From Roseivivax sp. THAF197b (lineage in GTDB: Bacteria > Pseudomonadota > Alphaproteobacteria > Rhodobacterales > Rhodobacteraceae), in the NCBI RefSeq assembly GCF_009363255.1, contig NZ_CP045318.1, positions 1,601,501-1,665,500 on the forward strand: a stretch of DNA of 64,000 bases. Direction: 5' to 3'. The notes below the pieces were generated by a model. That model did no database searches. It was not told where the DNA came from and was given only the letters and a program-made list of their open reading frames with translations. This document shows positions 41,361-57,828 of this stretch, piece after piece (the stretch's first letter is position 1; the number at the start of each line of letters is the position of its first letter). The position numbers were made by a program, and so were the translations under genes.

Positions 41361-42380
41361 ATGCCCGCCGACCTACTGACCGACGCCGATCAGGTATCCG
41401 ACATCGCCTTCGGGTTCATGGGGTCGAAGGCGCTTTTCGCAGCACTCGATGTCGGCATGTTCACCGCGTTGTCGGACGGGGCGCAGACGGCAGAGGAAGT
41501 GGCGGCCAAGACGGGCTTGCATCCGGCGCGGGCCGAGACCTTGATGACCGCGTTGACCGGGCTCGGGCTTTTGTCGGTCGATCAGGGGCGTTTTGCCAAT
41601 GCACCGGCGGCCGAAGCGTTTCTGGTCAAGGGCGCCAAGTACGATTTCGGCGATTACCTCAGGTTTCAGGTCGACAAGCAGATGTACCGGCTGCTCGGCC
41701 AACTGACGCCCGCGCTGACGGGCGCGCTGGGGGATGAGGCCACGAAAAGCTACGAGGCGTGGTTCGCCGATCCCGAAGAGGCGCGGCTCTATTCCGAAAG
41801 TCAGCATGCGGGCTCGACGGGTCCGGCGCGGCAACTGGCCAAACGCGTCGATCTGAGCGGTGTTTCGCGGCTTCTCGATGTGGGCGGGGGCACGGGCGCT
41901 TTTGCCATCGGGTTGTGCCAAGCCTATCCCGATCTTGAGGTGACCATCCTCGATTTTCCCAACGTGGCGACGCTTGGTCGGGATTACGTGGCCAAGGCGG
42001 GGCTCTCCGACCGCATCGCTTACGCGGAGGGCAATGCGCTCAAGGCCGAGTGGCCGGACGGGGTGGATGCCGTGTTGATGTCCTACCTGTTCTCGGGTGT
42101 GCCCGGAGAGGCGCATCCCGGACTTCTGGAAAAGGCCATGACCGTGCTCAACCCCGGCGGGTGGGTGATGGTGCACGACTTCATCGTGCATGCGGATCGC
42201 ACGGGGCCGCGCCTTGCCGCTCTTTGGCAATTGCAGCACACGGCCTTCACGCCGGAAGCCAAGTCGACTGACACGGACGGGCTGACCCGCGCCTTGGCGG
42301 ATGCGGGCTTCACGGATGTCGAAATCGGTCCGATGATCCCGGAAATGACGATGCTGGCGCTCGGGACGAAACCCGGCTGA
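41361..42380 (+). CDS. dsyB: SAM methyltransferase, candidate DsyB (DMSP synthesis)
   Basis: A 339-residue protein with an N-terminal dimerisation winged helix (about residues 12-100) and a PF00891-type methyltransferase domain; motif I is LLDVGGGTGAF (about 171-181). DsyB S-methylates methylthiohydroxybutyrate in bacterial DMSP synthesis and belongs to this family. The length, FMGSKALFAALD opening and ALWQLQH segment fit my memory of DsyB, but I cannot align it here. An O-methyltransferase for another small molecule is the main alternative. 86 bp after sufS. Confidence 0.5.
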   Translation: MPADLLTDADQVSDIAFGFMGSKALFAALDVGMFTALSDGAQTAEEVAAKTGLHPARAETLMTALTGLGLLSVDQGRFANAPAAEAFLVKGAKYDFGDYLRFQVDKQMYRLLGQLTPALTGALGDEATKSYEAWFADPEEARLYSESQHAGSTGPARQLAKRVDLSGVSRLLDVGGGTGAFAIGLCQAYPDLEVTILDFPNVATLGRDYVAKAGLSDRIAYAEGNALKAEWPDGVDAVLMSYLFSGVPGEAHPGLLEKAMTVLNPGGWVMVHDFIVHADRTGPRLAALWQLQHTAFTPEAKSTDTDGLTRALADAGFTDVEIGPMIPEMTMLALGTKPG

Positions 42381-42415: not shown

Positions 42416-43915
42416 TCAGCCGCCGGCCTTCAGGGCCGCGGCATGGGCGATATTGCCGCGATGCGCCTCGGCATAGGCCATCATGCCCGCCATCAGACCG
42501 CCCGCGTCATCGAACTTCGTCGAGGGATGGAAGCCCGAAGCGTGCCAGTAGGTCGTGGGATCGAGCCGCAGAAGGCGCGCGAACACGGACGCGACGATTG
42601 CCCCGCCAACACCGGTCAGCTTTCCGTGGCCGTGCTGCTCGGCCTCTTGCAGGCAGTAGAACCACAGGGGCGTCTTGACGATGCCGTTCTTCTTGAGGTC
42701 GGCATGCCGCTCCACCTCGGGCAGATCGCGGTGATGGTGGGTCTTGAACCAGTCGCGGATCTTCTCGCCGTTGGCGAGCTGATAGGTGTAGCGGTCCCGC
42801 AGCATGTTGCGCAGCGGCAGGTTACGGCTCTGATCGAGGGTCAGGGTGTGATTGATCTCTTCAAGATGGACGCGGTGGTTGATGAACATCAGGTTCGTCA
42901 GCGGCAGGCCGAGCGTGGTGCCCACGGGTCGCGCCTTCTGCGCCGCCGTACCGCCCAGGTCGAAGAACATGCGCATCTCGGCGGAGCTGTCGCGGAGCCC
43001 GAAGCCCAGGATGTCGCTCATCGAAATCTGGCCGCCGTCTTTCGCCATCGCGTAATCGGGCTGCGCCGTGGCATGGCCGAACCGGTAGGCCGCACCCGAG
43101 AATTCCACCGGCATGATCGCGGCACCCGCTCCGAAATCATCGAAGGTCATCGCGTGATCGAGGCAGGATTGCTGCACGAAGGCGGGCAGGAGTTCTGTCC
43201 AGACGGCGAATTGATAATGCATCCGCAGGAAGCGGCGGACCGCCTCGAAGATTTCCGCCTCCGAGGGCACGTGGTCGTGCCAATCGTTGGCATTCATGCC
43301 CATATGGGCGCAATCGAACACCTCCTTGCGGGTGTCGGCATCATGCTCCACCTCGGTCATCAGGATATTATGCAGGGCGATGAAATTGGCCTGGATCTGG
43401 CTGACGATGCCGTTCTCGTCATTGCGCGGATCGCCGATCAGCGCCGTGCCGTTGGGCGTGCGGGCAAGGTCGTGCTCATTGGTGGCATTGCCGTAAAGCA
43501 GATATCCCGACGCGTCGCTATTGCCGTAAAGATGCGGGCTCGCCTCGGGGCCCGAACCATAGACGCAGTCGAGATCGAGCGACGGCGTGCGCACGTTCGG
43601 GATCGTCGCGGGCACGATCCGGGTGCCCAGCGCCGAGGTTGCATCGAGCGTGATGTCATGATCGACGAACTGCCCGAAGAAGGTCAGACCCGCGGCCGCC
43701 TCGCCGGATTTGTCGGTCTTCTTGCCCATGCCGAGCGCGATGGCCTCGTAGATCTCGATGAGCTGGGGGTGGGTCAGGTTTTCGAGGTGAAGCGAATTGG
43801 CCGGAAGCAGCCTGCCGAACGTGGCGGGCAGGGGCAGGTGGCGGGCGTCCTGGGGGGCGATATGGGATTTAACAAGCTGGTCATAACGTGACAGCCCGTG
43901 ATGCACACGAGTCAT
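42416..43915 (-). CDS. Animal-type heme peroxidase family protein
   Basis: A 499-residue member of the peroxidase-cyclooxygenase superfamily. The distal His is His86 in GQFVDHDITLD. The conserved RTPNGTALIGDPRNDEN segment is near residues 152-168, and the proximal His is about His281 in EFSGAAYRFGHA. No signal peptide or calcium-binding repeats were seen, so it is probably cytosolic or secreted by an unseen route. It is the first gene of its unit, with an AT-rich upstream region. Confidence 0.85.
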   Translation of the reverse strand: MTRVHHGLSRYDQLVKSHIAPQDARHLPLPATFGRLLPANSLHLENLTHPQLIEIYEAIALGMGKKTDKSGEAAAGLTFFGQFVDHDITLDATSALGTRIVPATIPNVRTPSLDLDCVYGSGPEASPHLYGNSDASGYLLYGNATNEHDLARTPNGTALIGDPRNDENGIVSQIQANFIALHNILMTEVEHDADTRKEVFDCAHMGMNANDWHDHVPSEAEIFEAVRRFLRMHYQFAVWTELLPAFVQQSCLDHAMTFDDFGAGAAIMPVEFSGAAYRFGHATAQPDYAMAKDGGQISMSDILGFGLRDSSAEMRMFFDLGGTAAQKARPVGTTLGLPLTNLMFINHRVHLEEINHTLTLDQSRNLPLRNMLRDRYTYQLANGEKIRDWFKTHHHRDLPEVERHADLKKNGIVKTPLWFYCLQEAEQHGHGKLTGVGGAIVASVFARLLRLDPTTYWHASGFHPSTKFDDAGGLMAGMMAYAEAHRGNIAHAAALKAGG

Positions 43916-44082: not shown

Positions 44083-44159
<77 letters not shown>

Positions 44160-44343: not shown

Positions 44344-44856
44344 ATGAACGCACCCAGTTCGAGTTTCGCACAGACCCGCGACCCGCGCGCCTTGCGCGAT
44401 TCCCTGTCGTGCTTTCCGACCGGGGTGACCGTGGTCACGGCGCGGGCGCAGGATGGGGCGCCGGTCGGTGTGACGGTGTCGTCGTTCAACGCGGTCTCGC
44501 TCGACCCGCCGCTGATCCTTTGGAGCCTGGGGTTGAAATCCGCGAGCCTTGAGGTGTTTCGCGCTGCGGATCATTTCGCGGTCAACGTCCTGTCGGAGGC
44601 GCAGGCGGATCTTCCGCGCATCTTTTCCAGCCCGGTGGAGGATCGCTTCGCAGGGCTCGACTGGCGGGACGGGATCGGCGGTGCGCCGGTTCTGACAGAC
44701 AGCACCGCGGTCTTCGAATGCCGCAGCTATGCGCGCTACGATGGCGGCGATCACGAGATCATGCTGGGCGAGGTGATGCAGCACGATTGGCGCGAAGCGG
44801 CCCCGCTGATCTTCGCCAAGGGCCGCGTGTCGACCCTTCAGGCATCGGAGACCTGA
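44344..44856 (+). CDS. Flavin reductase family protein
   Basis: A 170-residue FMN-binding split-barrel protein of the HpaC/RutF type: CFPTGVTVVTAR opening, VGVTVSSFNAVSLDPPL (FMN site), and SLEVFRAADHFAVNVL. These enzymes give reduced FMN to two-component monooxygenases. The luciferase-like monooxygenase at 57829 is a plausible partner. No operator of the TetR type is upstream. Confidence 0.88.
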   Translation: MNAPSSSFAQTRDPRALRDSLSCFPTGVTVVTARAQDGAPVGVTVSSFNAVSLDPPLILWSLGLKSASLEVFRAADHFAVNVLSEAQADLPRIFSSPVEDRFAGLDWRDGIGGAPVLTDSTAVFECRSYARYDGGDHEIMLGEVMQHDWREAAPLIFAKGRVSTLQASET

Positions 44857-44886: not shown

Positions 44887-45306
44887 TCAGAACAGCGGCG
44901 CGTTCGCGCTGTCGAGATACTCGACAGTCGTGAAGCACAGGACCGTATCGCCGATATTCTCCAGATCGTGGGTCATGCTTTCGCCCTTGGCGAAGGTGAA
45001 ATGCTTGGTCGTGCCGACCTCGTAATCCATCTCCGACACCGTGCCATCGGAAAAGCGGGACCGCGCGCGTCCGGGGGTGGTGGCGACCCAGAAGTAATCC
45101 AGCATATGCGTGTGAAAGGGCAGGCGGTCGCCGGGCTGCATCTCGATCAGCCAGACCCGTGCGCGCGGGCTTTCGCTGACAAGGGTCGAGCCCACATTCC
45201 CGTTCGTTCCCGCGCTCTCCAATTCGGCGATCAGAGCAGGCGTCCAGTGCGGCCCCTGAAACGCATTCGCATCGGCGTCGATCCTGGTTGCGGCATTCTG
45301 TGTCAT
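44887..45306 (-). CDS. Cupin domain protein
   Basis: A 139-residue small cupin. The metal-type motif is partly present: LPFHTHMLDYFWV (two His) and MTHDLEN (one His). Such proteins are often isomerases, dioxygenases or ligand sensors. It is divergent from the FAD monooxygenase, with an operator between them. The ATG at 45306 is used; the longer ORF runs into the operator. Confidence 0.78.
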   Translation of the reverse strand: MTQNAATRIDADANAFQGPHWTPALIAELESAGTNGNVGSTLVSESPRARVWLIEMQPGDRLPFHTHMLDYFWVATTPGRARSRFSDGTVSEMDYEVGTTKHFTFAKGESMTHDLENIGDTVLCFTTVEYLDSANAPLF

Positions 45307-45330: not shown

Positions 45331-45354
45331 TTTAATTATAGAGTGATAATTAAA
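45331..45354. promoter_or_regulatory. Operator A (TetR-type), cupin/FAD monooxygenase divergon
   Basis: Perfect inverted repeat TTTAATTAT / ATAATTAAA with a 6-bp spacer. It lies 24 bp before the cupin start and 35 bp before the FAD monooxygenase start, so one bound dimer or dimer pair could control both. Same half-site design as operators at 46617, 48652, 54737 and 54817. Confidence 0.7.
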
Positions 45355-45389
45355 GAGCGCAAAGCGCAATTGCAGGGGAGGCAGGCAGC

Positions 45390-46595
45390 ATGGCAGGCAA
45401 GGCGGCAATCGTCGGAGGATCGATCGGCGGGCTGTTCGCGGCCGCCGCGCTCAAACGCGCAGGCTGGGACGTGGTGGTGCATGAACGCGTGAATGTGCCG
45501 CTTGCCGGGCGCGGGGCCGGGATCGTCACGCATCCGCAGCTCATTGACGCGCTGGAACGCGTGGGGGCCGAGACCGCCGATCTGGGCGTGCATGTGGACG
45601 AGCGTGTCGCCTTCGACCAGCAGGGCCGTGCCCATGCGCGCATGCCCTATCCGCAGGTCGTCACGTCCTGGGATCGCACGTACCAGGCCTTGCGCGCGCT
45701 GGTCCCGGATGCCCAGTATCGCCTTGGTCAGGCCCTGCACCGCTTCGATCAGGATGCGGACGGCGTCACGCTGCATTTCGAGGACGGCGCAACGGAGCGT
45801 GCGGATGTGCTGATCGGCACGGATGGGTTCCGATCCGTGGTGCGTGGGCAGATCGCGCCCGAGGTGCAGCCCGTATATGCGGGATACGTGGTCTGGCGCG
45901 CACTCGCCAATGAGGCCGATCTCGATCCGGGGATCCGCGACCGGGTCTTCGACATGTTCGGGATGTTCATGCCGAAGGGGACGCAGATCGTGGGCTATCC
46001 CATCGCTGGCGAGGGCAATGACCTGCGTCCAGGGCATCGGCGCTACAATTTCGTCTGGTACGTGCCGACGGACGTCGATGATCTGGACGATATGCTGACC
46101 GATGCGGAGGGGACGCGGCATGCGATCTCCATCCCGCCGCCACTGGTGCGGGAGGCGGTGGTGAAACGCGCCGCGCAAAGGGCTGCGGAATGGCTGCCGG
46201 ACGTGTTCGAACACGTGCTCGCGAAAAGCGAGCGGCCCTTCTTCACGCCGATCTATGACCATCTGAGCCCTGATTTCGCGCAAGGCCGCGTGGCCATCGC
46301 TGGCGATGCGGCCTGCGTGGCGCGGCCGCATGTGGGCATGGGCGTGACCAAGGCCGGGGGCGATGCCCTCGCACTCGGGCGGCACCTTTCGGGGGTGGGG
46401 CCGGAGGGTGTTGAAGCCGCCCTCGCATCCTATTCCGCGGAACGTGTGCCCGCGGCCCGCGCGGCGCATGATCGCGCGCAGATGCTGGGGCGTTACATCT
46501 TCGCTGATCCCGCAACGGGGCATAACCGCGACGGGCGCAACAATCCCAATCAGGACGAGATCCTGCGCCTCACGGCGGTGGCTGATTTCGACTGA
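45390..46595 (+). CDS. FAD-dependent aromatic monooxygenase, 2,6-dihydroxypyridine 3-hydroxylase-like
   Basis: A 401-residue class A flavoprotein hydroxylase. N-terminal GGSIGGLFAAAAL binds FAD; the second FAD motif is VAIAGDAACVARPHVGMG. Several segments (YAGYVVWRA, YPIAGEGN, YNFVWYVPTDVDDLDDML) recall 2,6-dihydroxypyridine 3-hydroxylase of nicotine degraders. It should use NAD(P)H and O2 to hydroxylate a ring. Substrate unproven. Controlled with the cupin by operator A. Confidence 0.82.
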   Translation: MAGKAAIVGGSIGGLFAAAALKRAGWDVVVHERVNVPLAGRGAGIVTHPQLIDALERVGAETADLGVHVDERVAFDQQGRAHARMPYPQVVTSWDRTYQALRALVPDAQYRLGQALHRFDQDADGVTLHFEDGATERADVLIGTDGFRSVVRGQIAPEVQPVYAGYVVWRALANEADLDPGIRDRVFDMFGMFMPKGTQIVGYPIAGEGNDLRPGHRRYNFVWYVPTDVDDLDDMLTDAEGTRHAISIPPPLVREAVVKRAAQRAAEWLPDVFEHVLAKSERPFFTPIYDHLSPDFAQGRVAIAGDAACVARPHVGMGVTKAGGDALALGRHLSGVGPEGVEAALASYSAERVPAARAAHDRAQMLGRYIFADPATGHNRDGRNNPNQDEILRLTAVADFD

Positions 46596-46616
46596 GATGC
46601 GGACGCGGCGTGATTC

Positions 46617-46637
46617 TTAATGATCGCCCGATAAATA
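46617..46637. promoter_or_regulatory. Operator E (TetR-type), before OsmC-TetR
   Basis: Read on the minus strand: TATTTAT, 6-bp spacer CGGGCG, ATCATTAA. It lies 38 bp before the OsmC start and fits autoregulation of the downstream TetR gene. Confidence 0.6.
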
Positions 46638-46674
46638 TGCGTTAAACAGGCCGGGCACAGATCAGGAGCGCGGC

Positions 46675-47169
46675 ATGGAAGATCAGGCAAGCAAGACCTT
46701 CGACGTCATCTTCGAAGGCACGGGCACCTCAAGCGGTAAGATGCGCAATGACATCGCGGTCGAATGGCCGATGATGAAGGAACGGTTCGAGCTTGCGACC
46801 GACGAGGGCCCGTTCCATGGCGGGGACGGAACCGCGCCGCCGCCTCTTGCGCTGTTCACCGCAGCCCTGACGGGGTGCCTGATGACCCAGATCCGCGCCT
46901 TCTCCAAGCGGCTTCGGATCGACATGCGCGGTGTCGAGGTCAAGGCAAAGCTGCATTGGTCGGGCGAGCAGATCGGCAACGCGCCCTATGTCACGGCGCC
47001 TGTCGGTTTTTCACTCGATGTGGATATCGACAGCGATGCAAGTCCCGAAGATCTCACGCATCTTCTTGAATGTGCCAAGAAAGGGTGTTTCATCGAGCAA
47101 AGCTTGGCGGAAGGCGTGAATGTCAGCCACCGGCTCAAGGTGAACGACGACTGGCAGGCCATTGACTGA
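46675..47169 (+). CDS. OsmC family protein
   Basis: A 164-residue OsmC/Ohr-fold protein. Two reactive Cys positions are present: ALTGCLMTQI (near residue 67) and ECAKKGCFIEQ (near 140-144). OsmC proteins reduce organic hydroperoxides or bind thiolates. It is co-transcribed with the TetR gene, with an 8-bp overlap, and preceded by operator E. Confidence 0.85.
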   Translation: MEDQASKTFDVIFEGTGTSSGKMRNDIAVEWPMMKERFELATDEGPFHGGDGTAPPPLALFTAALTGCLMTQIRAFSKRLRIDMRGVEVKAKLHWSGEQIGNAPYVTAPVGFSLDVDIDSDASPEDLTHLLECAKKGCFIEQSLAEGVNVSHRLKVNDDWQAID

Positions 47170-47827
47170 CAAGACAAAATCCAAAGGGGCGGGTGCGGAG
47201 ACCGCACCGCGCCGCAAGCGCCTTTCATCGGATGAGCGCCGCGAGGAATTCCTGGCCAAGGCCATCGAGTTCTTTGCCAAGCAGGGCTTTGAAAGTTCGA
47301 CCCGCGCGCTGGCCCGGCAATTGGGCGTCACGCAGCCGTTGCTCTATCGCTATTTCCCGTCGAAGAGCGACCTGATTTCCGAGGTCTATGACCGCGTCTA
47401 CGTCAAGCGTTGGCGCGATGAGTGGAGCGCGCTTCTCACCGATCGGGAGAAACCCGTGCGCAGCCGGCTGGTCGAGTTCTATTCCGCCTATACCGATGTC
47501 GTCTTCCATGACGAATGGATGCGGATTTTCCTGTTTTCCGGCCTCAAGGGCGAGGATATCAACCGCCGCTACATGAAGCTGGTGCGCGCCCGCATCCTGG
47601 AGCCGATCCTGCGTGAGCACCGCGTCGAGACGGGCATGGGCGAGACCGAGCCCTCAGACGAAGAAGTGGAATTCGCCTGGATCATGCATGGCGGCATTTT
47701 CTACTACGGTGTGCGGACGCTGATCTACGAAGCCTCGGTTCTGAACAACAAGGATTTCGTGATCGAGACGTCCATCGACGCGTTCCTCGGCCAGTTGCCG
47801 AAGGTGCGCGCGGCGGTGGCCGACTGA
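47162..47827 (+). CDS. TetR family transcriptional regulator
   Basis: A 221-residue regulator. The helix-turn-helix is TRALARQLGVTQPLLYRYF (about residues 47-65), and the rest is a helical ligand-binding domain. The start is a TTG at 47162 that overlaps the OsmC stop by 8 bp; no in-frame ATG or GTG lies before the HTH. The rare start would keep its level low. It is the best candidate to bind the five palindromes of this locus. The inducer is unknown. Confidence 0.85.
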   Translation: MTDKTKSKGAGAETAPRRKRLSSDERREEFLAKAIEFFAKQGFESSTRALARQLGVTQPLLYRYFPSKSDLISEVYDRVYVKRWRDEWSALLTDREKPVRSRLVEFYSAYTDVVFHDEWMRIFLFSGLKGEDINRRYMKLVRARILEPILREHRVETGMGETEPSDEEVEFAWIMHGGIFYYGVRTLIYEASVLNNKDFVIETSIDAFLGQLPKVRAAVAD

Positions 47828-47905
47828 CCGAGACCCGCTGCGCGCGTTTTCAGCCAGGCTGAGACGTGGCGGCGCGACCCGCGAAAGCAGCCGCGCCGAA
47901 ACCGC

Positions 47906-48427
47906 TCAGGCCTTCGTGCCGCGTGCCGGGTAACCCTTCGCGACCGCGCCGACCTTGCTCAGCAGGATATCGAGATTGGGTCGCGCGAAGGGCATGGTGG
48001 CGATGTCGATGAGATACAATTCGCCATCCGGCTTGACCCAGAAGGTGCCGGGCTCCGCGAAGGTGGCCGTTTCGGCCTCCTTGATCGAGCTTGAGAGATA
48101 AAGCCCCCAATTCCGCGCATCCTCTTCGGTCATGCCATACGCGATCTGCGTCTTCTCGAGCCCCCATTCGTCCTTGGCCTTCTGCGCGCGATCCTCGGGA
48201 TCCATGGAGACGGCGACGACCTTCACGCCCGCTGCCTCGAACGCCTCGATCTTGGGCTCCAGCTGATCGGCGAGGAAATCCTTGCAGACCGGGCAATGAA
48301 AGCCGCGATAGACCAGGATCATCGTGACCGTTTCGGGCGTCTGGTCGGCCAGGGTGAAGGTGCCGCCGCCCACAAGCGGAAGGGACAGGGCCGGGGCCTG
48401 CGTGCCGGGCATGATCTTGGAGGACAT
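47906..48427 (-). CDS. Peroxiredoxin-like AhpC/TSA protein
   Basis: A 173-residue thioredoxin-fold protein with the active pair in YRGFHCPVCKDF (near residues 48-51). AhpC/TSA family by fold; the CPVC arrangement is found in peroxiredoxin-like proteins of unknown specificity. AGGAG precedes the ATG at 48427. Divergent from the Mo-hydroxylase operon, with operator B between. Confidence 0.82.
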   Translation of the reverse strand: MSSKIMPGTQAPALSLPLVGGGTFTLADQTPETVTMILVYRGFHCPVCKDFLADQLEPKIEAFEAAGVKVVAVSMDPEDRAQKAKDEWGLEKTQIAYGMTEEDARNWGLYLSSSIKEAETATFAEPGTFWVKPDGELYLIDIATMPFARPNLDILLSKVGAVAKGYPARGTKA

Positions 48428-48734
48428 GTGAGAAAACTCCTGTTTTTCAGTTGGATATCGGTCGGTTGAGAGCGAAACGGCCCTGATCGCCGATGGGTTC
48501 CCGAATGCGGTGAGCGGGATGGGCGGCACGGATGGCCTTGGCGGTGGGACTGCAGGCGCTCATCGGGCAGGGCGGTCGCCTCTGCCTGAAGTAGGTCGTC
48601 CTCTTCACCATGATCCGGACCATCGCGGCCTTCCGAATTTGCGCTTGCCTGTTATTTATAAGTCGATAAATTAAGTGATACGGGAAGGGTCTGCAGAGCA
48701 CAAGGGCGCCAGTTCGGACCGGGACGGGGGGATC
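48428..48734. other. Intergenic control region with operator B
   Basis: 307 bp between the divergent peroxiredoxin and Mo-hydroxylase genes. No gene is evident. The only clear element is operator B at 48652-48674. Promoter boxes for either side were not identified with confidence. Confidence 0.5.
48652..48674. promoter_or_regulatory. Operator B (TetR-type), peroxiredoxin/Mo-hydroxylase divergon
   Basis: TTATTTAT, 6-bp spacer AAGTCG, then ATAAATTAA. It lies 61 bp before the Mo-hydroxylase operon. Confidence 0.65.
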
Positions 48735-49562
48735 ATGAAAGCTGCGGATTTCGCGTATGAAAAACCGGATAGCCTGGACGCCGCATTGGCGCTTCTGGCC
48801 GATCCGGACCGGGATGCGAGCCCCATTGCCGGTGGGCAAAGCCTTGTTCCCATGATGAATTTCCGGATGGCCATGCCGGAGCTTCTGGTCGATCTCAACG
48901 GGCTTGATGAATTACGGGGCATTTCGGCGGACGCCGGTGGCGGCCTCAGGATCGGCGCGATGACGCGTTACAGCGCGCTCGAGGCGTCCGACCTCGTGAC
49001 GGAGCGCGCGCCGATCATCGCGATGGCACTGCCGCATATCGCGCATGCCGCAATCCGCAATCGGGGCACCATCGGGGGCAGCGTCTCGCTGGCCGATCCG
49101 GCGGCGGAAATGCCCGCGCTGATGTTGGTTCTCGATGCCGAGATCGAGGTGCAATCGGCCAAGGCCCAGCGCCGCATCAAGGCGGACGAGTTCTTCACCG
49201 GCCTCTACGAGACCGCGCTTGACGAGGGCGAGTTGGTGACCGCGATCCACGTACCGGCCGCACCTTCGGGCCGACGCTTTGCCTTTTATGAACTCGCGCG
49301 ACGCCACGGCGATTACGCAATGGCAGGCGTCGCAATTGCCGGGACGGGCGACGCGCTGGAAGACCCGCGCATCGCCTTCTTCTCGGTCTCGGACCGGGCG
49401 CTGCGTGCGCGCGGCGCGGAGGCCGCCTTGGCCGCAGGCGATGTGGAGGGCGCCATCGCGGCGCTCGATGAGATCGACTTCGCGGGCGATCTCAATGCCG
49501 ATGCCAAGACCAAGCGCCATCTCGCGGGCGTGGTTCTGAAGCGCGCCCTGGGGAGGCTCTGA
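48735..49562 (+). CDS. Mo-hydroxylase FAD subunit (CoxM-like)
   Basis: FAD-binding middle subunit of a xanthine oxidase-family enzyme, 275 residues. FAD motifs are AGGQSLVP (about residues 32-39) and NRGTIGGSVSLADPAAEMP (about 110-128). It passes electrons from the 2Fe-2S subunit to an acceptor. The ATG at 48735 follows a G-rich ribosome site. One base separates it from the small-subunit gene. Confidence 0.9.
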   Translation: MKAADFAYEKPDSLDAALALLADPDRDASPIAGGQSLVPMMNFRMAMPELLVDLNGLDELRGISADAGGGLRIGAMTRYSALEASDLVTERAPIIAMALPHIAHAAIRNRGTIGGSVSLADPAAEMPALMLVLDAEIEVQSAKAQRRIKADEFFTGLYETALDEGELVTAIHVPAAPSGRRFAFYELARRHGDYAMAGVAIAGTGDALEDPRIAFFSVSDRALRARGAEAALAAGDVEGAIAALDEIDFAGDLNADAKTKRHLAGVVLKRALGRL

Positions 49563-49563
49563 C

Positions 49564-50043
49564 ATGTCCGACACACGAACGATCCGTTTGACCGTGAACG
49601 GCGAGACCGGGAGCTACACCGTCCCCGTCCGGCAAAATCTTGTCGACTTCATCCGCAACGATCTGGGCCTGACGGGCAGTCATGTGGGCTGCGAACATGG
49701 CGTCTGCGGGGCATGCTCCATCGAGGTGGATGGTGATATCGTGCGAGGCTGCCTGATGTTCGCGGTGCAGGCCGATGGGGCCGAGATCACCACGATCGAA
49801 GGCCTGGCGGAAAGCGACCGGGGCGCGGCCCTGCGTTCCGCCTTCTCGGCGCGCAACGCGCTGCAATGCGGCTATTGCACACCGGGCATGCTGGCCACGG
49901 CGCTCGATTACGTCGAAGCGGGCGGGGCCGCCGACCGGGCGGCGATCCGCGCGCATCTGTCGGGCAATTACTGCCGCTGCACAGGGTATCAATCCATCGT
50001 GGATGCGGTTTGCGACGTGATCGAGGGGAGGGTCGAGGCATGA
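49564..50043 (+). CDS. Mo-hydroxylase 2Fe-2S subunit (CoxS-like)
   Basis: A 159-residue subunit with two 2Fe-2S clusters. The plant-type cluster is in GCEHGVCGACSIEVDG and the C-terminal cluster in QCGYCTPGM and NYCRCTGYQ. Electron relay between the molybdenum and FAD subunits. Its stop overlaps the large-subunit start by 4 bp. Confidence 0.92.
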   Translation: MSDTRTIRLTVNGETGSYTVPVRQNLVDFIRNDLGLTGSHVGCEHGVCGACSIEVDGDIVRGCLMFAVQADGAEITTIEGLAESDRGAALRSAFSARNALQCGYCTPGMLATALDYVEAGGAADRAAIRAHLSGNYCRCTGYQSIVDAVCDVIEGRVEA

Positions 50044-52418
50044 GCGGCCCGCTGACCATGTTCGACACGCCGCGCGCCTATATCGGACAGCCCGTGCCGC
50101 GCGCGGATACCAAGCGGCTCCTGCAGGGGCGGGGCAAGTTCATCGACGACATTCAGCTGCCCCGGATGCTGCATGCGGCCTTCGTCCGCTCGCCCGTGGC
50201 GCATGGCACGATCACCGGGATCGACGTCGAGGAGGCGCGCGCGCTGCCCGGCGTCATCGCGGTCTATACCGGTGCGGATATCGCGCCGCACGTGGAACCG
50301 TACGTGGGCGTGCTGAGCCACCTTGCGGGACTGCGCTCGGCCCCGCAGATGCCGCTTGCGGTGGATGTGACCCGCTGGATCGGCGAGCCCTTGGTGATGA
50401 TCATCGCGCAAAGCCGCGCCGTGGCCGAAGATGCCGCAGCGCTCGTGATGGTCGATATCGATCCGCTGGACGCCGTGACGGATATGGAAACCGCCCTCGA
50501 TCCCGCGACGCCGGTGATCCATGCGGAGATGGACTCGAACCTCGCCTGGGAGCGCACCGTCGATGTGGGTGATGTGGATGCGGCCTTCGCGCGGGACGAT
50601 GTGACCGTGGTCGAGCGTCGCTTCCGCTTCGGGCGCCATACGGGCGTCACGCTTGAGACGCGCGGCGCCGTGGCGGCGTTCGATCCCTCCGAGGACGAGC
50701 TGACTTTCTGGTATTCGGGCCAGGCGCCGCACATGATGCAGTTCATCTTCGCCAAGCATCTGGGCCTGCCCGAGGAGAACGTGCGCGTCGTGAGCCAGGA
50801 TGTGGGCGGCTCCTTCGGGATCAAGATCCACACCTATGGCGACGAGATCGCGACGGCGCTGGCGGCGAAGCTGCTGGGCCGGCCGGTGAAGTTCGTGGCC
50901 GACCGGATGGAAAGCTTCCTGTCGGATATCCATGCACGCGATCACGTGGTCGACGGGCGGATCGCCGTCGATGCCGACGGCAGGATCGCCGCTTTGGCCT
51001 TCGATGACATCACCGGGATCGGGCCCTTCTCGATGTATCCGCGCACCTCGGCCATCGAGGCGAACCAGGTGCTGAACCTCACGGGCGCGCCTTACGTGAT
51101 GGAGAATTACCGCGCAAACGCCAAGGTCGTGTTTCAGAACAAGAACCTGATGTGCCAGTACCGGGCGGTGGGGCATCCCATCGCCATGGCGGTCGCGGAT
51201 GGCCTGCTGGAGGATGCCGCGCACGAGATCGGCATGGATGTGGTCGAGATCCGGCGGCGCAACCTCATCCCCGACGACGCTTATCCGACGCAATCGGCCT
51301 CTGGCATGAAGCTCGACGATCTGAGCCATCACAAGAGCTTGGAGACCCTTGTTGACGCGATGGATTACGAAGCGCGGCGGGCGGAACATGCCAAGCTGCG
51401 CGAAGAGGGCATCTATCGCGGGCTTGGTCTCATTTCGATGGTGGAGGTCACCAACCCCTCGCCGATGTTCTACGGCATCGGCGGCGCGCCTATCGCGAGC
51501 CAGGATGGCGCGACGATCCGGCTCGATGCGGGCGGCGGGGTGCATGTGTCCTCGTCGGTGACCGAACAGGGGCAGGGTACCAATGCCATTCTTGCCCAGA
51601 TCGCGGCGGATGTGTTCGGCGTACCGATCGAACGGGTCAAGGTCACCACCGGCGACACGCGGACCACGCCTTATGGCGGCGGCACATGGGCCTCGCGCGG
51701 CGCGGGCATCGGCGGGGAGGCCTGCCTGCAGGCAGCGCAGGCCTTGCGCGATCAGGTGCTCGAGGTGGCGGCGGTGATCCTTCAGTCCGAGCCCGGCAAG
51801 CTTGATATCAAGGCAGGCGCGGTGGTCGATGCCGAAGGCGGTGCGGAGCGGATGAGACTCAGCGATCTGGCGCGGACGGTCTATTATCGCGGCAACGAGC
51901 TGCCCTCGGATCTCAAGCCTGAACTGATCGCAACGCGGCATTATCGCGTGACCGACTTCCCCTTCGTCTTCACCAACGGCGCCATGGCCGCCGAGGTGGA
52001 GGTCGATCCCGAAACGGGCTTTGTGCAGGTCCTGAACTTCTGGGCGGTCGAGGATTGCGGGCGCGTCATCAACCCCGTGCTGGTCGACGAACAGGTGCGC
52101 GGCGGCGTGGTGCAGGGCATTGGCGGGGCACTTTACGAGGAATGCGTCTATGACGCGGAGGGCCAGCTGCAGAACGCGACCATGGCCGATTACCTCGTGC
52201 CGATGGCCTTCGAGATGCCGGATATCGTGGTGAAACACGTGGAGACACCGACCAAGACCTCCGTTCTGGGCGCCAAGGGTGCTGGCGAGGCCGGCACGGG
52301 CGGCGCGCCCGGCGCGGTGATGAACGCGGTGAACGACGCGCTTCGACCCCTGGGGGCGGCGATCCACCAGATGCCGATGACACCCGAGCGGGTGCTGCGG
52401 GCCTTGGGGAAGGTCTGA
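50040..52418 (+). CDS. Mo-hydroxylase molybdopterin subunit (xanthine oxidase family)
   Basis: Catalytic 792-residue subunit binding the molybdopterin cytosine dinucleotide cofactor. The base Glu is in GAKGAGEAGTGG near the C-terminus, and QDVGGSFGIK is the cofactor loop. The active-site loop reads QYRAVGHPIAMA, not the AYXCSFR loop of true CO dehydrogenase, so it is a hydroxylase of an organic (often N-heteroaromatic or aldehyde) substrate. Probably cytosolic; no signal peptide. Order M-S-L is like coxMSL. Confidence 0.88.
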   Translation: MSGPLTMFDTPRAYIGQPVPRADTKRLLQGRGKFIDDIQLPRMLHAAFVRSPVAHGTITGIDVEEARALPGVIAVYTGADIAPHVEPYVGVLSHLAGLRSAPQMPLAVDVTRWIGEPLVMIIAQSRAVAEDAAALVMVDIDPLDAVTDMETALDPATPVIHAEMDSNLAWERTVDVGDVDAAFARDDVTVVERRFRFGRHTGVTLETRGAVAAFDPSEDELTFWYSGQAPHMMQFIFAKHLGLPEENVRVVSQDVGGSFGIKIHTYGDEIATALAAKLLGRPVKFVADRMESFLSDIHARDHVVDGRIAVDADGRIAALAFDDITGIGPFSMYPRTSAIEANQVLNLTGAPYVMENYRANAKVVFQNKNLMCQYRAVGHPIAMAVADGLLEDAAHEIGMDVVEIRRRNLIPDDAYPTQSASGMKLDDLSHHKSLETLVDAMDYEARRAEHAKLREEGIYRGLGLISMVEVTNPSPMFYGIGGAPIASQDGATIRLDAGGGVHVSSSVTEQGQGTNAILAQIAADVFGVPIERVKVTTGDTRTTPYGGGTWASRGAGIGGEACLQAAQALRDQVLEVAAVILQSEPGKLDIKAGAVVDAEGGAERMRLSDLARTVYYRGNELPSDLKPELIATRHYRVTDFPFVFTNGAMAAEVEVDPETGFVQVLNFWAVEDCGRVINPVLVDEQVRGGVVQGIGGALYEECVYDAEGQLQNATMADYLVPMAFEMPDIVVKHVETPTKTSVLGAKGAGEAGTGGAPGAVMNAVNDALRPLGAAIHQMPMTPERVLRALGKV

Positions 52419-52763
52419 GCCCGGCCCATACAGCGCAGGGCGAGTAAACGCAGGACCAAGCGGGATTTGTCTGCTGATGCGCTCTGCTGGGCGTTGTTCG
52501 AAACAGCGCGTCCACAGGCGCCGCTCCTCTGAAGATGATTTCTGTTCGGACCTCGCGGCAAACCAAGCGCACAGGACGTCCGATCCGGTCGAAAAAAGCG
52601 GAGCCTGTCCACATATCCCGCCCGTGCGTACCGTCGCTTCATCCAATCAACTTGCCTCTCTGTGAACGCGTTCACAGCGTGGCTGCCTGCCATCTCCTAA
52701 AGCTTGGGTCATCGAACGGACACACAGTCCACAGCCTGAACCCAATGACCAAGGAGATTTCCG
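52419..52763. other. Intergenic region with palindromic operator
   Basis: 345 bp between the Mo-hydroxylase operon and the secreted protein gene. No convincing gene was seen. It contains the palindrome at 52660-52677 and presumably the promoter of the secreted-protein gene. Confidence 0.5.
52660..52677. promoter_or_regulatory. Perfect 18-bp palindrome, LacI-family-like operator
   Basis: CTGTGAACGCGTTCACAG has a central CG and TGAAC/GTTCA arms like many LacI/GalR-family operators. It lies 87 bp before the secreted-protein gene. No LacI-type regulator is in the window. Confidence 0.5.
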
Positions 52764-53357
52764 ATGACCAACACGATTGCCAAGAAACTCATCGCCACAG
52801 CCCTCGCGGTTTCCACGCTTGCCAACAACGCGACCACGGCGACGGCGGCCCCCCTGACCAATAATTACCGGGCCTACGAGGTATCGTTCGAGTGCCACAA
52901 GGACGGCGTGATCAATACCGGCACTCGGGACAAACTGGCGGTCAATTTCGTGACAACCGGGGGCCGGATCTACCCGGGCACGGCGATCCTTCAGCCCGGC
53001 AGCACCTGCGCGCCCGGCAGCCTTGCGGTCTATCGCTCGCCGCAGATCGCGTTGCCGAATGATGACCAATTGGCGCGGGTCACCGTGGCTGCAACTGGGC
53101 AGGATGCGATGCTCGCCACGGTGGTTCATGTGCACCAGTACGACAAGGGTGCGCCGAATACCGGCTTTCGGACGCCCTATGTGGGCCGCTGGGCCAATGG
53201 CAATGGACGGCGCGCCTATTGCTTCTCCACCGACGCCGCCGACACGACCAGCCAGGGCTGGTTCTCGAACGGAGGCGATCCGGCCCGGCATATCTGGTCG
53301 GCGGGCTGCACGAAGAAGATCACGTTCATGGTCAACGGCCCGGCCTCGCTTAACTAG
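52764..53357 (+). CDS. Secreted protein of unknown function
   Basis: A 197-residue protein with a clear signal peptide (MTNTIAKKLIATALAV..., cleavage likely near ATAAP at about residue 30). The mature part has four Cys (FECHKDG, STCAPGS, AYCFSTD, AGCTKK), suggesting two disulfides, and no domain I recognise. AAGGAG is well placed before the ATG. Flanked by a LacI-like palindrome upstream and a minus-strand TRAP gene downstream. Confidence 0.75.
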   Translation: MTNTIAKKLIATALAVSTLANNATTATAAPLTNNYRAYEVSFECHKDGVINTGTRDKLAVNFVTTGGRIYPGTAILQPGSTCAPGSLAVYRSPQIALPNDDQLARVTVAATGQDAMLATVVHVHQYDKGAPNTGFRTPYVGRWANGNGRRAYCFSTDAADTTSQGWFSNGGDPARHIWSAGCTKKITFMVNGPASLN

Positions 53358-53530
53358 AGCTCGGAAAGGCGTTTGCGCAGGTATCGTCCCCGGACGGGCC
53401 TGCGCGACAGAGCGACAGTCTCGACGTCCCTCGGTTCCCTCCGGGGCATTTTTCGCATCTGCACCCCGATTGAGGCCATGGATGCTGGCGACGAGCCTCG
53501 CGTGCCGGGTTGTCGCATGCCCCATCATGA

Positions 53531-53555
53531 AAAAGGGCGGCCCGAAAGCCGCCCC
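53531..53555 (-). terminator. Rho-independent terminator for dctP
   Basis: Stem GGGCGGC / GCCGCCC with a CCGAAA loop. On the minus strand it is followed by five T, 25 bp after the dctP stop. Confidence 0.8.
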
Positions 53556-53579
53556 GTTCGTTACGGCTGAGGCCAGACC

Positions 53580-54656
53580 TCACTCGATGGTGTAATCCAC
53601 CGGCATCTCGTAGCCCGTCGCGGCGACCGCTTCGATATAGGTCTTCATCACCTCCGTGCCGGGCATGCCGCGGCCGTCGGCGTCCTTGGCCTGCTGGTTG
53701 GGGAAGCTCACGAGGCTTTCCGCCCAGCCCGCGCGCGCCTCGGCGGACAATTCGCGGATCTCCGCACCCACTTCGCGCAGCCCTTCGAGGCCCGCGGCCT
53801 GCCGCGCGTTGTTCGAGGCACCCGACTGGTCCTCATAGGCGCGGCCCACTTCGACGATGATCTGGCGCACGTCCTCGGGCAGGCTGTCGAACTTGCGCTG
53901 GTTCATGGTCAGCGCGTTCACGCCCATCGCGCCGAAGCCGATCAGGGTGTAATAGGGCGAAGGCTCGTAGAACTTGAAGCCGAGATAGGCCGAGGGGAAC
54001 ATCAGCCAGCCGTTATAGACGCCCGTCTGCAGCGACAGGTAGCCGTCGGGCAGGGTGGATTGCACCGGCACCGCGCCCGCGAATTCGAGCCAGGGCAGGT
54101 TGGGCCCCGCGCCGCCGATCTTCACGCCCTGCAGGTCGTCCACAGTCTCCCAGGGATCGGTGGTGCCGAGGTGATAATTGTCCCAGCCATGCAGACCCAG
54201 AAGCACCTGGTCATACTCGGATGTGAATTGCTCGGTCAGCCACGGCACCGCGTCATAGGTGGCGCGCACGGCCTCCATGCCCTGTGCCGCGTCCTGCGGG
54301 CCGAAGGGCGTGTAATAGGGGAAGTTGTGCAAGAACAGCTTCGCCGGCTCGAAACAGATGCAATAGGCGCCGATATCGAGAATGCCGTTCTGCACCGACT
54401 CGAGCGTCTCGGCCACGCCCGCGATGGCACCGCCATAGCCTTCCACGAACTCGATCGTGTGCTCCGTCTCCTCGGCGACGCGGCGCTTGACCTCGGGCAC
54501 GAAGAAATCCGCCACATCCGCCACGTAGACCGCAGGCCCGTTGGGGTGTCCGGCCCCGATCCTGAGGGTGATATCCTCGGCAAGGACGGGGGTCGCCCCG
54601 AGTGACAGTGCCGTCCCGACAAGCACGCATCCGCGCGCGTAAGCCGTCTTTTTCAT
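53580..54656 (-). CDS. TRAP transporter substrate-binding protein (DctP family)
   Basis: Periplasmic binding protein of 358 residues with a signal peptide ending near TPVLA-ED. The DctP domain includes YGGAIAGVAETLESVQNGILDIG and LQGVKIGGAGPNLPWLE. The ligand-gripping Arg of classical DctP proteins is not obvious by eye, so the ligand may not be a C4-dicarboxylate. It diverges from dctQM, with operators C and D in the spacer. Confidence 0.88.
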   Translation of the reverse strand: MKKTAYARGCVLVGTALSLGATPVLAEDITLRIGAGHPNGPAVYVADVADFFVPEVKRRVAEETEHTIEFVEGYGGAIAGVAETLESVQNGILDIGAYCICFEPAKLFLHNFPYYTPFGPQDAAQGMEAVRATYDAVPWLTEQFTSEYDQVLLGLHGWDNYHLGTTDPWETVDDLQGVKIGGAGPNLPWLEFAGAVPVQSTLPDGYLSLQTGVYNGWLMFPSAYLGFKFYEPSPYYTLIGFGAMGVNALTMNQRKFDSLPEDVRQIIVEVGRAYEDQSGASNNARQAAGLEGLREVGAEIRELSAEARAGWAESLVSFPNQQAKDADGRGMPGTEVMKTYIEAVAATGYEMPVDYTIE

Positions 54657-54736
54657 CTATGTCTCCTCCCTGGTGTCGCGCAATATCGCGTGGAGCTGGC
54701 GGCCCTGGCCTGATCGGTGCTCTTGTCCGACCGGCA

Positions 54737-54757
54737 TTATTTATCGACCGCTAACTA
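54737..54757. promoter_or_regulatory. Operator C (TetR-type), on the dctP side
   Basis: TTATTTAT, 6-bp spacer CGACCG, then CTAACTA. 81 bp before the dctP start. The right half-site is the weakest of the five operators. Confidence 0.6.
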
Positions 54758-54816
54758 CCGATGACATTCCCACACATAATCCCGCACCGGTCAAGCTGGC
54801 ACATGAGCTGAGCGCC

Positions 54817-54838
54817 TTATTTATCGTTCGCTAATTAA
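54817..54838. promoter_or_regulatory. Operator D (TetR-type), on the dctQ side
   Basis: TTATTTAT, 6-bp spacer CGTTCG, then CTAATTAA. 73 bp before the dctQ start and followed shortly by TTGACC. Confidence 0.65.
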
Positions 54839-54910: not shown

Positions 54911-55438
54911 ATGCAGGTGCCCATCAAGATTTCGAGGGCGATCCATCTGATCTCCGCGCTCTGGACGCTGGCCTTGGCGGCGCTGATCTTCGGGGACGTG
55001 ATCGGACGCACGGTCTTCACGGCGCCCATTCCGGGCACCAAGGAAATCCTGCAGAACTCCATCGTCTCCATCGCCTTTCTGCAATTGCCGCTGGCGATCT
55101 ATTCCGGCTCCATGTTGCGCACGACGATCTTTGCCGATGCGGTGCCGCCCGTCGCGCGGCGCATCCTGCGGACCGTCTCGGCGCTGCTCGGCCTCCTCGT
55201 CTTTCTCGGCCTGGTCTGGAGCACGCTGCCTGCCTTCCTCGATGCCTACCGGATCGGCGAATACGAGGGCGAGGGTTCGTTGCGGGTGCCCACCTGGCCG
55301 GTGCGCGGCGTCGTGCTGGTGATGTCGGCCTTCGTGGCGCTGGCCTATCTGCAAATGATCTGGCTCGACTGGCGCGGGCGGCTCATCGACGAGTCCGAAG
55401 CGCCCGGCGCCTTCGCCCCCCTCGGCACCGAAAAATAA
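54911..55438 (+). CDS. TRAP transporter small permease (DctQ family)
   Basis: A 175-residue membrane protein with four helices, including IFGDVIGRTVF in helix 1 and the conserved EILQNSIVSIAF segment. Forms the membrane complex with DctM. The ATG at 54911 follows GGGGAGGG; an upstream in-frame start at 54872 is less likely. 15 bp before dctM. Confidence 0.88.
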   Translation: MQVPIKISRAIHLISALWTLALAALIFGDVIGRTVFTAPIPGTKEILQNSIVSIAFLQLPLAIYSGSMLRTTIFADAVPPVARRILRTVSALLGLLVFLGLVWSTLPAFLDAYRIGEYEGEGSLRVPTWPVRGVVLVMSAFVALAYLQMIWLDWRGRLIDESEAPGAFAPLGTEK

Positions 55439-55453: not shown

Positions 55454-56773
55454 ATGGGTGGGGATATCGTACTTTGGATGCTGCTTCTGCTGATCGTTCT
55501 GATCTTTCTGGGCGTGCATATCGGCGTTTCACTGGCGGTCTGCTCCGCGCTTGGCGTCTGGCTGATGCTCGGCAGTTTCGAGGCGGCGGTCTCGATCCTT
55601 GGAAACACCGCCTATGAGGCGGTGCGCAAGGACGTCTTCGCGGTGATCCCGCTATTCGTCCTGATGGGGGATTTCATATCAAGGTCAGGGGCGGCGTCCG
55701 ACCTTTACCGGATCTGCGACCGCACGCTAAAGCGCCTTCCGGGCCGACTGGCCATCGCGACCATTGCCGGAAACACCGTCTTCGCCGCCGTGACGGGCGT
55801 GTCGATCGCTGCCGCCGCCGCCTTCAGCCGCATCGCGTATCCCGAGATGAAGCGCGTGGGCTACAAGCAGACCTTCTCGCTGGGCGCGGTCGCGGGCTCG
55901 GCCTGTCTCGGCATGCTGATCCCGCCCTCGGTGCTGCTGATCGTCTGGGCAATCCTGACCGAGATGAGCGTGGGCGCCCTGTTCATCGCGGGCATCATCC
56001 CGGGCATCCTGCTGGCGCTTCTCTTCACGGCCTACGTGGTCATCTCCGCCATGCGAAAGCCCGAGATCGCGCCAGCCTTCAAGGAGGAACTGGTCCCGCT
56101 GACGCGCGAAGAGCTCCGCTCAGAGCTCGTGGGCGGGCTCGGCATCCTCGCGCTGATCCTGCTGGTGATCGGGGGCATCTGGACGGGTATCTTCACGCCG
56201 ACGGAAGCCGCCGGGTTCGGCGCCATCGGCGCGCTCATCATCGGCATCATCAAGGGCATGCGCGGCCGCGAAATCCTCGAGGCGATCTATCAGGCGGGGC
56301 GCACCACGGCGCCCATCATGTTCCTGCTGATCACGGCGCAGATGTATTCGCGCCTTCTGGCCATCGGCGGCGCGGTCAACTTCATCCAAGGGCTCTTTTT
56401 CGGCATGGGGGCGGAGCCCTGGATGATCATCGCACTGATGATGGTGATCTGGATCATCCTCGGCATGCTGGTCGATTCCGTGTCGATCATCCTGCTGACC
56501 GTGCCGATCTTCGCGCCGATGGCGGTGATCCTCGGCATCGATCCGATTGCCTTTGCGATCTTCGGCATCCTCGTGATCGAGGCAGGCCTGCTGACGCCGC
56601 CCTTCGGACTTCTGGTCTATACGGTGAAAGGCTCCGTGCCCGATCCTGACGTGACTTTGGGCCAGATCTTCGCGGGCTCGACACCCTATTTCCTGCTGAT
56701 CCTGCTGGCCGCGCTGATCGTCCTGTTCGTACCGGCGCTCGCGACCTGGATGCCGCAGGCCATGCTGAACTGA
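55454..56773 (+). CDS. TRAP transporter large permease (DctM family)
   Basis: A 439-residue ion-coupled permease with about 12 membrane helices, the normal DctM size. Family segments visible: SAAAAFSRIAYPEMKR-like stretch (IAAAAAFSRIAYPEMKRVGY), GSACLGMLIPPSVLLIV and FTPTEAAGFGAIGALI. AGGAG precedes the ATG. Second gene of the dctQM unit. Confidence 0.93.
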   Translation: MGGDIVLWMLLLLIVLIFLGVHIGVSLAVCSALGVWLMLGSFEAAVSILGNTAYEAVRKDVFAVIPLFVLMGDFISRSGAASDLYRICDRTLKRLPGRLAIATIAGNTVFAAVTGVSIAAAAAFSRIAYPEMKRVGYKQTFSLGAVAGSACLGMLIPPSVLLIVWAILTEMSVGALFIAGIIPGILLALLFTAYVVISAMRKPEIAPAFKEELVPLTREELRSELVGGLGILALILLVIGGIWTGIFTPTEAAGFGAIGALIIGIIKGMRGREILEAIYQAGRTTAPIMFLLITAQMYSRLLAIGGAVNFIQGLFFGMGAEPWMIIALMMVIWIILGMLVDSVSIILLTVPIFAPMAVILGIDPIAFAIFGILVIEAGLLTPPFGLLVYTVKGSVPDPDVTLGQIFAGSTPYFLLILLAALIVLFVPALATWMPQAMLN

Positions 56774-56790: not shown

Positions 56791-57699
56791 TCAGGGCTCC
56801 TGCAACCCGTCGAGGTCGCGGCGGATCTCATCGAGGAAAAGATGACCCTCGGGCGCCAGCGGTCGGCGTGCGGGTTCGATCACCACGAAATCGGAATAGA
56901 GCGGCGGATCGATCAGCGGAGAGACCGTCCGGACGACGCCGCCTGCCTGGGCATCAGGCCCCGCGATGATCCAGGGCAGTATGGTGACCCAATCGCTGTT
57001 CGCGACGAGTTCAAGCGTGCCGAGCATCGCATCCATGTCCAGAAGGCGCGCGACGCGGATGCCGTTCGTTTCGAGATATTCCTCGATCTTTGCGCGGCGG
57101 ATATTGGCGCGCGCGGGCACAATCAGGTGCAAGGGGGGCAGGGAGGCCAGTGCGACGGGGCCGAGGTTTTCGAGCCCCTGGCCCGGACGCGACAGCAGCA
57201 TTTCCCGCGAGCGCACGAGCGGCGTGACCTTCAGCCCGGTCTGGCCGGAAAAGCCCGGCACCAGCGCGAAATCCAGCGCCTCGGCGCGCACCATGTCCGT
57301 GAGTGCGCCGGAATAGCCCTCGATCACCTCGATCTCGACGCCGGGATGGGCGGCGGCAAAGCGATCAAGCGCCGGGGCAAGTGCTGCACGCGTCAGGGCC
57401 GGGATCAGGCCCGCGCGGATCTTGCCGCTGATGGCGCCGCCCGCCGCCCGCGCCTCGCCGCTGGCCTGTTCCAGAAGCCTGAGCGCCTCGATGCATTGGG
57501 TGTAATAGCGCTGCCCGGCCGGCGTCGGCGTCACGCCATCGGGGCCGCGCAGGAACAAGGGCAGTCCCAGCGCCTGTTCGACCGCGGCCACATGCTGGGA
57601 AATGCCCGATTGCGTGGCATTCTCGCGTTGTGCGGCGCGGGTGAAGGACTGCTCCTCGACCACGGCCACGACGGAGCGGATCTGGCGCAGGGTGATCAT
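56791..57699 (-). CDS. LysR family transcriptional regulator
   Basis: A 302-residue LysR regulator. The winged HTH is at residues about 1-60 (ITLRQIRSVVAVVEEQSFTRAAQ), followed by the periplasmic-binding-like effector domain. It diverges from the luciferase-like monooxygenase gene, the usual layout for a LysR regulator and its target. The 129-bp spacer is AT-rich but carries no copy of the TetR-type operator. Confidence 0.9.
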   Translation of the reverse strand: MITLRQIRSVVAVVEEQSFTRAAQRENATQSGISQHVAAVEQALGLPLFLRGPDGVTPTPAGQRYYTQCIEALRLLEQASGEARAAGGAISGKIRAGLIPALTRAALAPALDRFAAAHPGVEIEVIEGYSGALTDMVRAEALDFALVPGFSGQTGLKVTPLVRSREMLLSRPGQGLENLGPVALASLPPLHLIVPARANIRRAKIEEYLETNGIRVARLLDMDAMLGTLELVANSDWVTILPWIIAGPDAQAGGVVRTVSPLIDPPLYSDFVVIEPARRPLAPEGHLFLDEIRRDLDGLQEP

Positions 57700-57828
57700 C
57701 GGCTTGCCCTCCGGTCACTTTCGAAATTGTCGCGCCATCAATAATTTTGATCCGCTTTTTTATTCATTATAATTTCACATGAGAGGCCGGCAATATACCT
57801 TCGACGCAGATCATCGAGGGAGGACGTG

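Follow-up and report, generated by a model that had tools for sequence, protein, structure and literature searches.

A TetR-family regulator and five operators of one design predicted to form a regulon in a catabolic locus of Roseivivax sp. THAF197b

A stretch of 64,000 nucleotides of the Roseivivax sp. THAF197b genome (contig NZ_CP045318.1, positions 1,601,501 to 1,665,500, hereafter the window, with positions counted from its first letter) contains a locus of oxidative and transport genes in which five AT-rich dyads accompany a gene for a TetR-family regulator (47162-47827, + strand). Comparison of sequences makes it very likely that this TetR protein binds all five sites and that the sites form its regulon. 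The sites, their rarity, their conservation, their co-occurrence with the regulator and their covariation with its recognition helix were computed directly. The fuller explanation, in which dyad binding, repression and release by an inducer together switch a whole pathway, is in our judgement probable; binding, repression, inducer and substrate class are inferred in it, and we hold repression at every unit less firmly than binding.

The predicted operator is a 22-bp dyad with the consensus TTATTTATCRNNYGATAAATAA, to which no strand is assigned. Operator A (45332-45353, TTAATTATAGAGTGATAATTAA) lies between a cupin-like gene on the - strand and a flavin adenine dinucleotide (FAD) monooxygenase gene on the + strand, operator E (46617-46638, TTAATGATCGCCCGATAAATAT) lies before osmC-tetR, and operator B (48652-48673, TTATTTATAAGTCGATAAATTA) lies before coxMSL, between it and a divergent peroxiredoxin gene. 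Operators C (54737-54758, TTATTTATCGACCGCTAACTAC) and D (54817-54838, TTATTTATCGTTCGCTAATTAA) occupy the dctP side and the dctQ side, respectively, of the dctP/dctQ intergenic region, 80 bp from each other. A preliminary description of the window had listed five AT-rich dyads of one design, each between divergent genes or directly before genes; all five were found, with ends at most one base off, and all five are intergenic. Its plan had two arms separated by N6, but the six bases at the centre are constrained: among 76 related sites, C occupies position 9 in 85%, and G (60%) or A (39%) occupies position 10, with the mirror positions likewise. Operator A, which it called perfect, is palindromic in its 8-bp arms only, and not in its inner six bases.

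Sequences of this kind are rare in the genome. With up to 3 mismatches, the pattern TTATTTATN6ATAATTAA matched 10 distinct places in the 4.24-Mb genome, comprising the operators (A and D with 1 mismatch, B and E with 2, and C with 3) and five places outside the locus, all with 3 mismatches. At up to 2 mismatches there were four places genome-wide (A, B, D and E), all within the locus, and the reversed control of the pattern gave 1 forward and 1 reverse match. A refined pattern matched five places, namely B, C, D, E and C1:1266981, with 0 matches for its control; operator A, with more than 3 mismatches, falls outside this pattern. A matrix was also built from relatives only, using 76 sites (at least 18 bits) from 19 related loci, with the window excluded. 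Over the 64-kb window, this matrix gave 36.0 bits to B, 33.5 to D, 32.2 to A, 29.4 to C and 25.5 to E, the lowest of the five, while the next best place reached 9.2 bits and the maximum in 30 first-order Markov sequences of 64 kb (1.92 Mb) was 11.6 bits. The relatives-only and window matrices are not fully independent, as the 19 loci were chosen for their related genes and the window matrix served to pick the sites in them, and we therefore take rarity and position as stronger evidence than matrix scores. The preliminary description had called for a genome scan, and by pattern, refined pattern and matrix alike the sites were not frequent elsewhere.

Two further candidates were rejected. A sixth site at 57723, in the intergenic region between the LysR gene and the luciferase-like monooxygenase (LLM) gene, reached 17.9 bits with the window matrix but 9.2 bits with the relatives-only matrix, and none of 15 other scanned LLM loci has a site of at least 15 bits. 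The site at C1:1266981 (L095; 24.6 bits with the window matrix and 18.1 with the relatives-only matrix) was treated as probably a chance match; its surroundings are AT-rich, and the open reading frame that follows resembles, by eye from its translation, a TadE-type pilus-assembly protein.

The operators are conserved in related genomes. Among 394 genomes of the family, 44 had a match to the TetR protein at E <=1e-25, and in 16 of these the match was at E <=1e-60 (hereafter close TetR), a cut chosen after the results were seen; two other genomes, G382 (47%) and G099 (46%), would qualify if the cut were set at 46% identity. The units of the 16 genomes were scanned with the window matrix at a threshold of 15 bits, and of 63 unit-genome cases that could be tested, 58 had an operator before the corresponding unit, an outcome that favours the preliminary description, which had named conservation in orthologous loci as a test. 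All 16 genomes have the operator before coxM, and all 15 that could be assessed have it in the dctP/dctQ region (the stretch of G418 starts inside dctM and was left out); 14 of the 16 have it upstream of osmC or tetR, and 13 of the 16 upstream of the FAD monooxygenase gene or its cupin gene. An operator at the regulator's own unit fits autoregulation. Linkage to tetR is not constant: in G097, the coxMSL, TRAP (tripartite ATP-independent periplasmic) transporter and FAD monooxygenase genes and their operators lie at about 477-489 kb of the contig that carries tetR at 117 kb, which places these operators about 360-372 kb from tetR, and the TRAP unit in G007, a genome of the same genus, and the FAD monooxygenase gene in G316 are on contigs other than that of tetR. 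The distance between C and D was 79-81 bp in 9 of 13 two-site loci, the others having 59, 72, 87 and 96 bp, and L075, L080 and L088 had one site of at least 15 bits in the dctP/dctQ region. A spacing of 80 bp corresponds to about 7.6 helix turns; two promoters or cooperation are both conceivable.

The sites also follow the regulator from genome to genome. With up to 3 mismatches, the pattern TTATTTATCGNNCGATAAATAA had matches in 36 of 394 genomes, namely all 16 with the close TetR, 6 of the 28 whose TetR match fell between 1e-60 and 1e-25, and 14 of the 350 that lack this TetR (Fisher test, 4e-20 for close TetR versus none and 0.002 for distant TetR versus none, kinship not corrected), and the reversed-pattern control matched 8 of the 394 genomes at one place each. 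The LLM monooxygenase was found in 16 of 16 close-TetR genomes (in G165 as a partial match at a contig end) versus 15 of 378 others, and the FAD monooxygenase in 16 of 16, its search being limited to these genomes.

One base of the operator covaries with the recognition helix. We counted sites in the 450 bp before tetR in related loci, leaving out second copies of the same locus. Regulators with the helix (T/K)QPLLYRYF accounted for 20 half-sites (10 loci), of which 19 had T at position 6, whereas those with the helix TQSL(L/I)F.YF had G there in 23 of 26 half-sites (13 loci; Fisher test, 9e-9, relatedness uncorrected). The changed residues fall in residues 58-64, the recognition helix in the AlphaFold2 model. 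Each second-clade site was taken as the best match to the window matrix, which prefers T, so that the G of this clade runs against the bias of the count; the weakest second-clade site, in Dinoroseobacter shibae, had 12.0 bits. The loci left out of this count were, in the first clade, L041-L045 and L047-L050, whose site is before osmC and beyond 450 bp, and L051 (G197), with the first-clade helix but no site in 450 bp; L052 and L053 (TQPLIYRYF), with sites before osmC; L108, with sites of 21-23 bits between tetR and the next gene; L054/L082 (SHAVIYRHF) and L096 (SQALIFRYF), with a best match of 3.3 bits; and L063, whose upstream sequence is absent from the data. Co-occurrence of the pattern with tetR and this covariation thus support, at the level of sequence, the link that the preliminary description had drawn between the dyads and the TetR protein at 47162.

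The regulator gene has a TTG start and overlaps osmC. Its N-terminal TetR_N helix-turn-helix passes the Pfam cut-off (PF00440, 48.8 bits against 24), which places the protein in the TetR family. The AlphaFold2 model, built from 6 sequences with a mean confidence (pLDDT) of 77.6, has 10 helices in an all-helical TetR-like fold, and its best Foldseek match is the TetR-family regulator 2qib (E 1.5e-4, TM 0.62). Over the aligned stretch the protein is 89% identical to the TetR of G007.

Several results count against our interpretation. Operator E has no counterpart of at least 15 bits in G007, the closest relative; the other genome lacking a site before osmC or tetR is G197, which has none near tetR, and three genomes (G165, G197 and G216) are without a site at the FAD monooxygenase. 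The bit scores of the relatives in the unit scan were obtained with the window matrix, and thus do not come from an independent motif. The 14 TetR-less genomes that match the pattern also belong here; in at least one of them, G062, the match lies about 2.1 kb from an LLM orthologue on the same contig. Finally, a scan of the region for the sigma-70 consensus gave 1 promoter-like site versus 2.4 in shuffled sequences, with none at an operator, and the position of operator D suits activation as well as repression.

Because that scan gave none at any operator, the promoter overlaps considered here are readings by eye. Operator B overlaps a possible coxMSL promoter, TTGCCT-N16-TAAATT (48645-48672), covering its spacer and -10 element, a position that suits repression. 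Operator D lies 5 bp upstream of TTGACC-N16-TAGCTT, with its centre at about -51 from the presumed start, and the TTGA and TAGC of this element were kept in 14 of 14 aligned dctP/dctQ regions. It is conceivable, if unlikely, that TetR binds but activates, or acts dually, at least at dctQM: the place of D before a conserved element and the 79-81 bp between C and D in most two-site loci would agree with this, and some TetR-family proteins, such as FasR, are activators. Most characterised members of the family repress, however, and operator B is placed as a repressor site would be. We favour repression with substrate-induced release.

That some other regulator binds the dyads, either the LysR protein encoded at 56791-57699 between dctQM and the LLM gene or a different TetR, appears very improbable. 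The LysR gene is within the locus and other TetR proteins are encoded elsewhere in the genome, but the presence of the pattern tracks the TetR protein at 47162, the operator base varies with its recognition helix, and a search at E 1e-8 turned up no LysR relative in the stretches inspected, each a part of its genome, of the operator-bearing L067, L038, L039, L068-L072 and L075-L077. Chance AT-rich sequence has a negligible share in the explanation: intergenic regions tend to be richer in AT, and five further places in the genome match at 3 mismatches, but the five operators stand far above the rest of the window and the Markov sequences with the relatives-only matrix, and their positions are conserved across genera.

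According to the explanation that we prefer, a dimer of the TetR protein would bind the dyad TTATTTATCRNNYGATAAATAA upstream of transcription units that fall into four groups. The first would comprise the small cupin-like protein (44887-45306, -; no Pfam match, nearest solved relative 9u8n with a cupin type-2 domain, E 2.9e-11) and the FAD monooxygenase (45390-46595, +; PF01494), which resembles 2,6-dihydroxypyridine hydroxylase (2vou, E 2.9e-44). The second would be the operon of the OsmC-like protein (46675-47169, +; PF02566) and tetR. The third would be the coxMSL-type molybdenum hydroxylase (48735-52418, +; identified with Pfam), with its FAD (48735-49562), 2Fe-2S (49564-50043) and large (50040-52418) subunits, together perhaps with the peroxiredoxin of the AhpC/TSA family (47906-48427, -; PF00578). 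The fourth would be the TRAP substrate-binding protein DctP (53580-54656, -; NF037995 above its cut-off) and the permeases DctQ (54911-55438, +; PF04290) and DctM (55454-56773, +; PF06808). The preliminary description had placed all of these genes under the regulator, and the comparisons support its list, though less so for the peroxiredoxin gene, whose control through operator B is plausible but weaker, since B lies 225 bp from its start.

TetR would most likely repress these units and be released by a small molecule, which is probably either the substrate brought in by TRAP or an early intermediate. Release would then switch on together TRAP uptake, hydroxylation by the molybdenum hydroxylase and the FAD monooxygenase, and peroxide clean-up by peroxiredoxin and OsmC, two members that would make sense as a means of removing the peroxide formed by leaky flavin and molybdenum enzymes. 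The products would feed ring cleavage by the LLM-class monooxygenase (57826-58932, +; nearest solved relative 3,6-diketocamphane 1,6-monooxygenase) with a flavin reductase, and a PcaD-like enol-lactonase (58929-59738, +; PcaD cut-off passed with 272.4 against 255.85 bits). The HpaC-like flavin reductase (44344-44856, +; PF01613), the likely partner of the LLM monooxygenase, occurs in several related loci too, and no operator was found at it.

The LLM and PcaD-like genes are without an operator of their own in the window. In L039, L040, L070, L087 and L088 they directly follow dctM, and because of this gene order they are probably members of the pathway, so that the one system of about 10 kb that had been proposed is likely larger and would reach 59.7 kb in the window. 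The next gene (59741-60703) encodes a SLAC1/TehA-like membrane protein with relatives of 61-62% (L067, L038) and 87% (L087) identity, and may belong to the pathway. Between the FAD monooxygenase gene and osmC, beside operator E, relatives carry a PF04199 cyclase gene (the window equivalent is 46596-46674), together with a glutathione S-transferase gene in L037 and L039. The cyclase was present in 5 of 7 genomes examined and not found in this genome (G000) or G007, which would either have lost this step or never had it. A smaller set of TRAP, LLM, flavin reductase, hydrolase, glutathione S-transferase and TetR genes with operators was found in L092 and the Marinovum plasmid pMaD9; no coxMSL or FAD monooxygenase was seen in the inspected stretches of either. 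Just upstream of the flavin reductase gene that starts the locus lies a tRNA-Arg gene (44083-44159, anticodon CCG), the sole tRNA found in the window, which is a possible integration point for the accessory locus. An animal-haem-peroxidase-like protein (42416-43915, -; PF03098, 47.4 bits), unusual in a bacterium, is encoded beside an O-methyltransferase (41361-42380).

The enzymes point to oxidative breakdown of a ring compound, probably an N-heteroaromatic one. This class is proposed because the nearest solved relatives of the large subunit CoxL (quinoline 2-oxidoreductase, 1t3q, E 2.8e-144) and of the FAD monooxygenase (2,6-dihydroxypyridine hydroxylase) act in such pathways, the comparison being with solved structures only. 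Here, unlike in the systems of those two enzymes, the pair is accompanied by a TRAP transporter, an LLM monooxygenase and a PcaD-like hydrolase. Homarine was weighed as a candidate substrate but is not claimed, since no paper on a homarine operon was found among the openly licensed papers listed from PubMed Central (PMC).

RutR (pyrimidine use), AcuR (acrylate use) and NicR2 (nicotine breakdown) are like the present system in their TetR fold and helix-turn-helix, in a regulator beside catabolic and transport genes, and in inverted-repeat operators. The TetR protein of the locus, however, lies far below the NCBIfam equivalog cut-offs of RutR (24.0 against 368 bits) and AcuR (26.6 against 247) and also below that of FasR (38.0 against 330), and NicR2 (5fgl) came only at rank 42 of the fold search (E 4.0e-3, 19% identity); these comparisons are between the proteins. 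Closer are the TetR homologues of the TQSLLF type (G001, G003 and G004 of the same genus, G014, and plasmid pDSHI05 of D. shibae), which are 41-47% identical, have adjoining molybdenum-hydroxylase and TRAP genes in five inspected loci and a 22-bp dyad before tetR, but differ in G instead of T at half-site position 6 and in the changed recognition helix. The stretches of L081 and L084-L086, which are of this type, showed no counterpart of the locus's genes for the FAD monooxygenase, OsmC or the LLM enzyme. Sites of 21-31 bits were also seen beside TetR homologues of 40-54% identity, near various oxidative genes, on plasmids of Rhizobium, Ancylobacter, Burkholderia, Marinovum, Agrobacterium and Paraburkholderia (L102, L103, L104, L106, L107 and L108). 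Judged from sequence comparison, the operator type is older than the Roseivivax locus.

A local TetR regulon, with members unlinked in some genomes, is a kind of system already known; the TetR regulons in the table of PMC5343134 are those of FabR, FadP, LiuQ, PsrA and RutR. No published description of the present regulon was found by title among the openly licensed PMC papers listed, which is weak evidence of absence. The switch is of an ordinary kind, so that the interest lies mainly in the substrate and in a clean comparative case. The dyad gives a handle on a pathway whose genes cannot be named from annotation alone, and any gene bearing it becomes a candidate for membership, however distant from tetR. 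The two TetR clades, in turn, are well suited to testing how a change in the recognition helix relates to one operator base. As a tentative proposal, which we consider somewhat less likely than its negation, the TetR clade and its 22-bp operator may mark an undescribed pathway of marine Rhodobacteraceae, in which an N-heteroaromatic compound would be imported by TRAP and its ring opened by a molybdenum hydroxylase, a dihydroxypyridine-hydroxylase-like enzyme and a two-component LLM monooxygenase, and may also represent a regulator/operator pair, with a helix-and-base switch between two specificities, that has been put to use again in further oxidative pathways of Alpha- and Betaproteobacteria. 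If this is true, the operators could be used to find further oxidative pathways in both classes.

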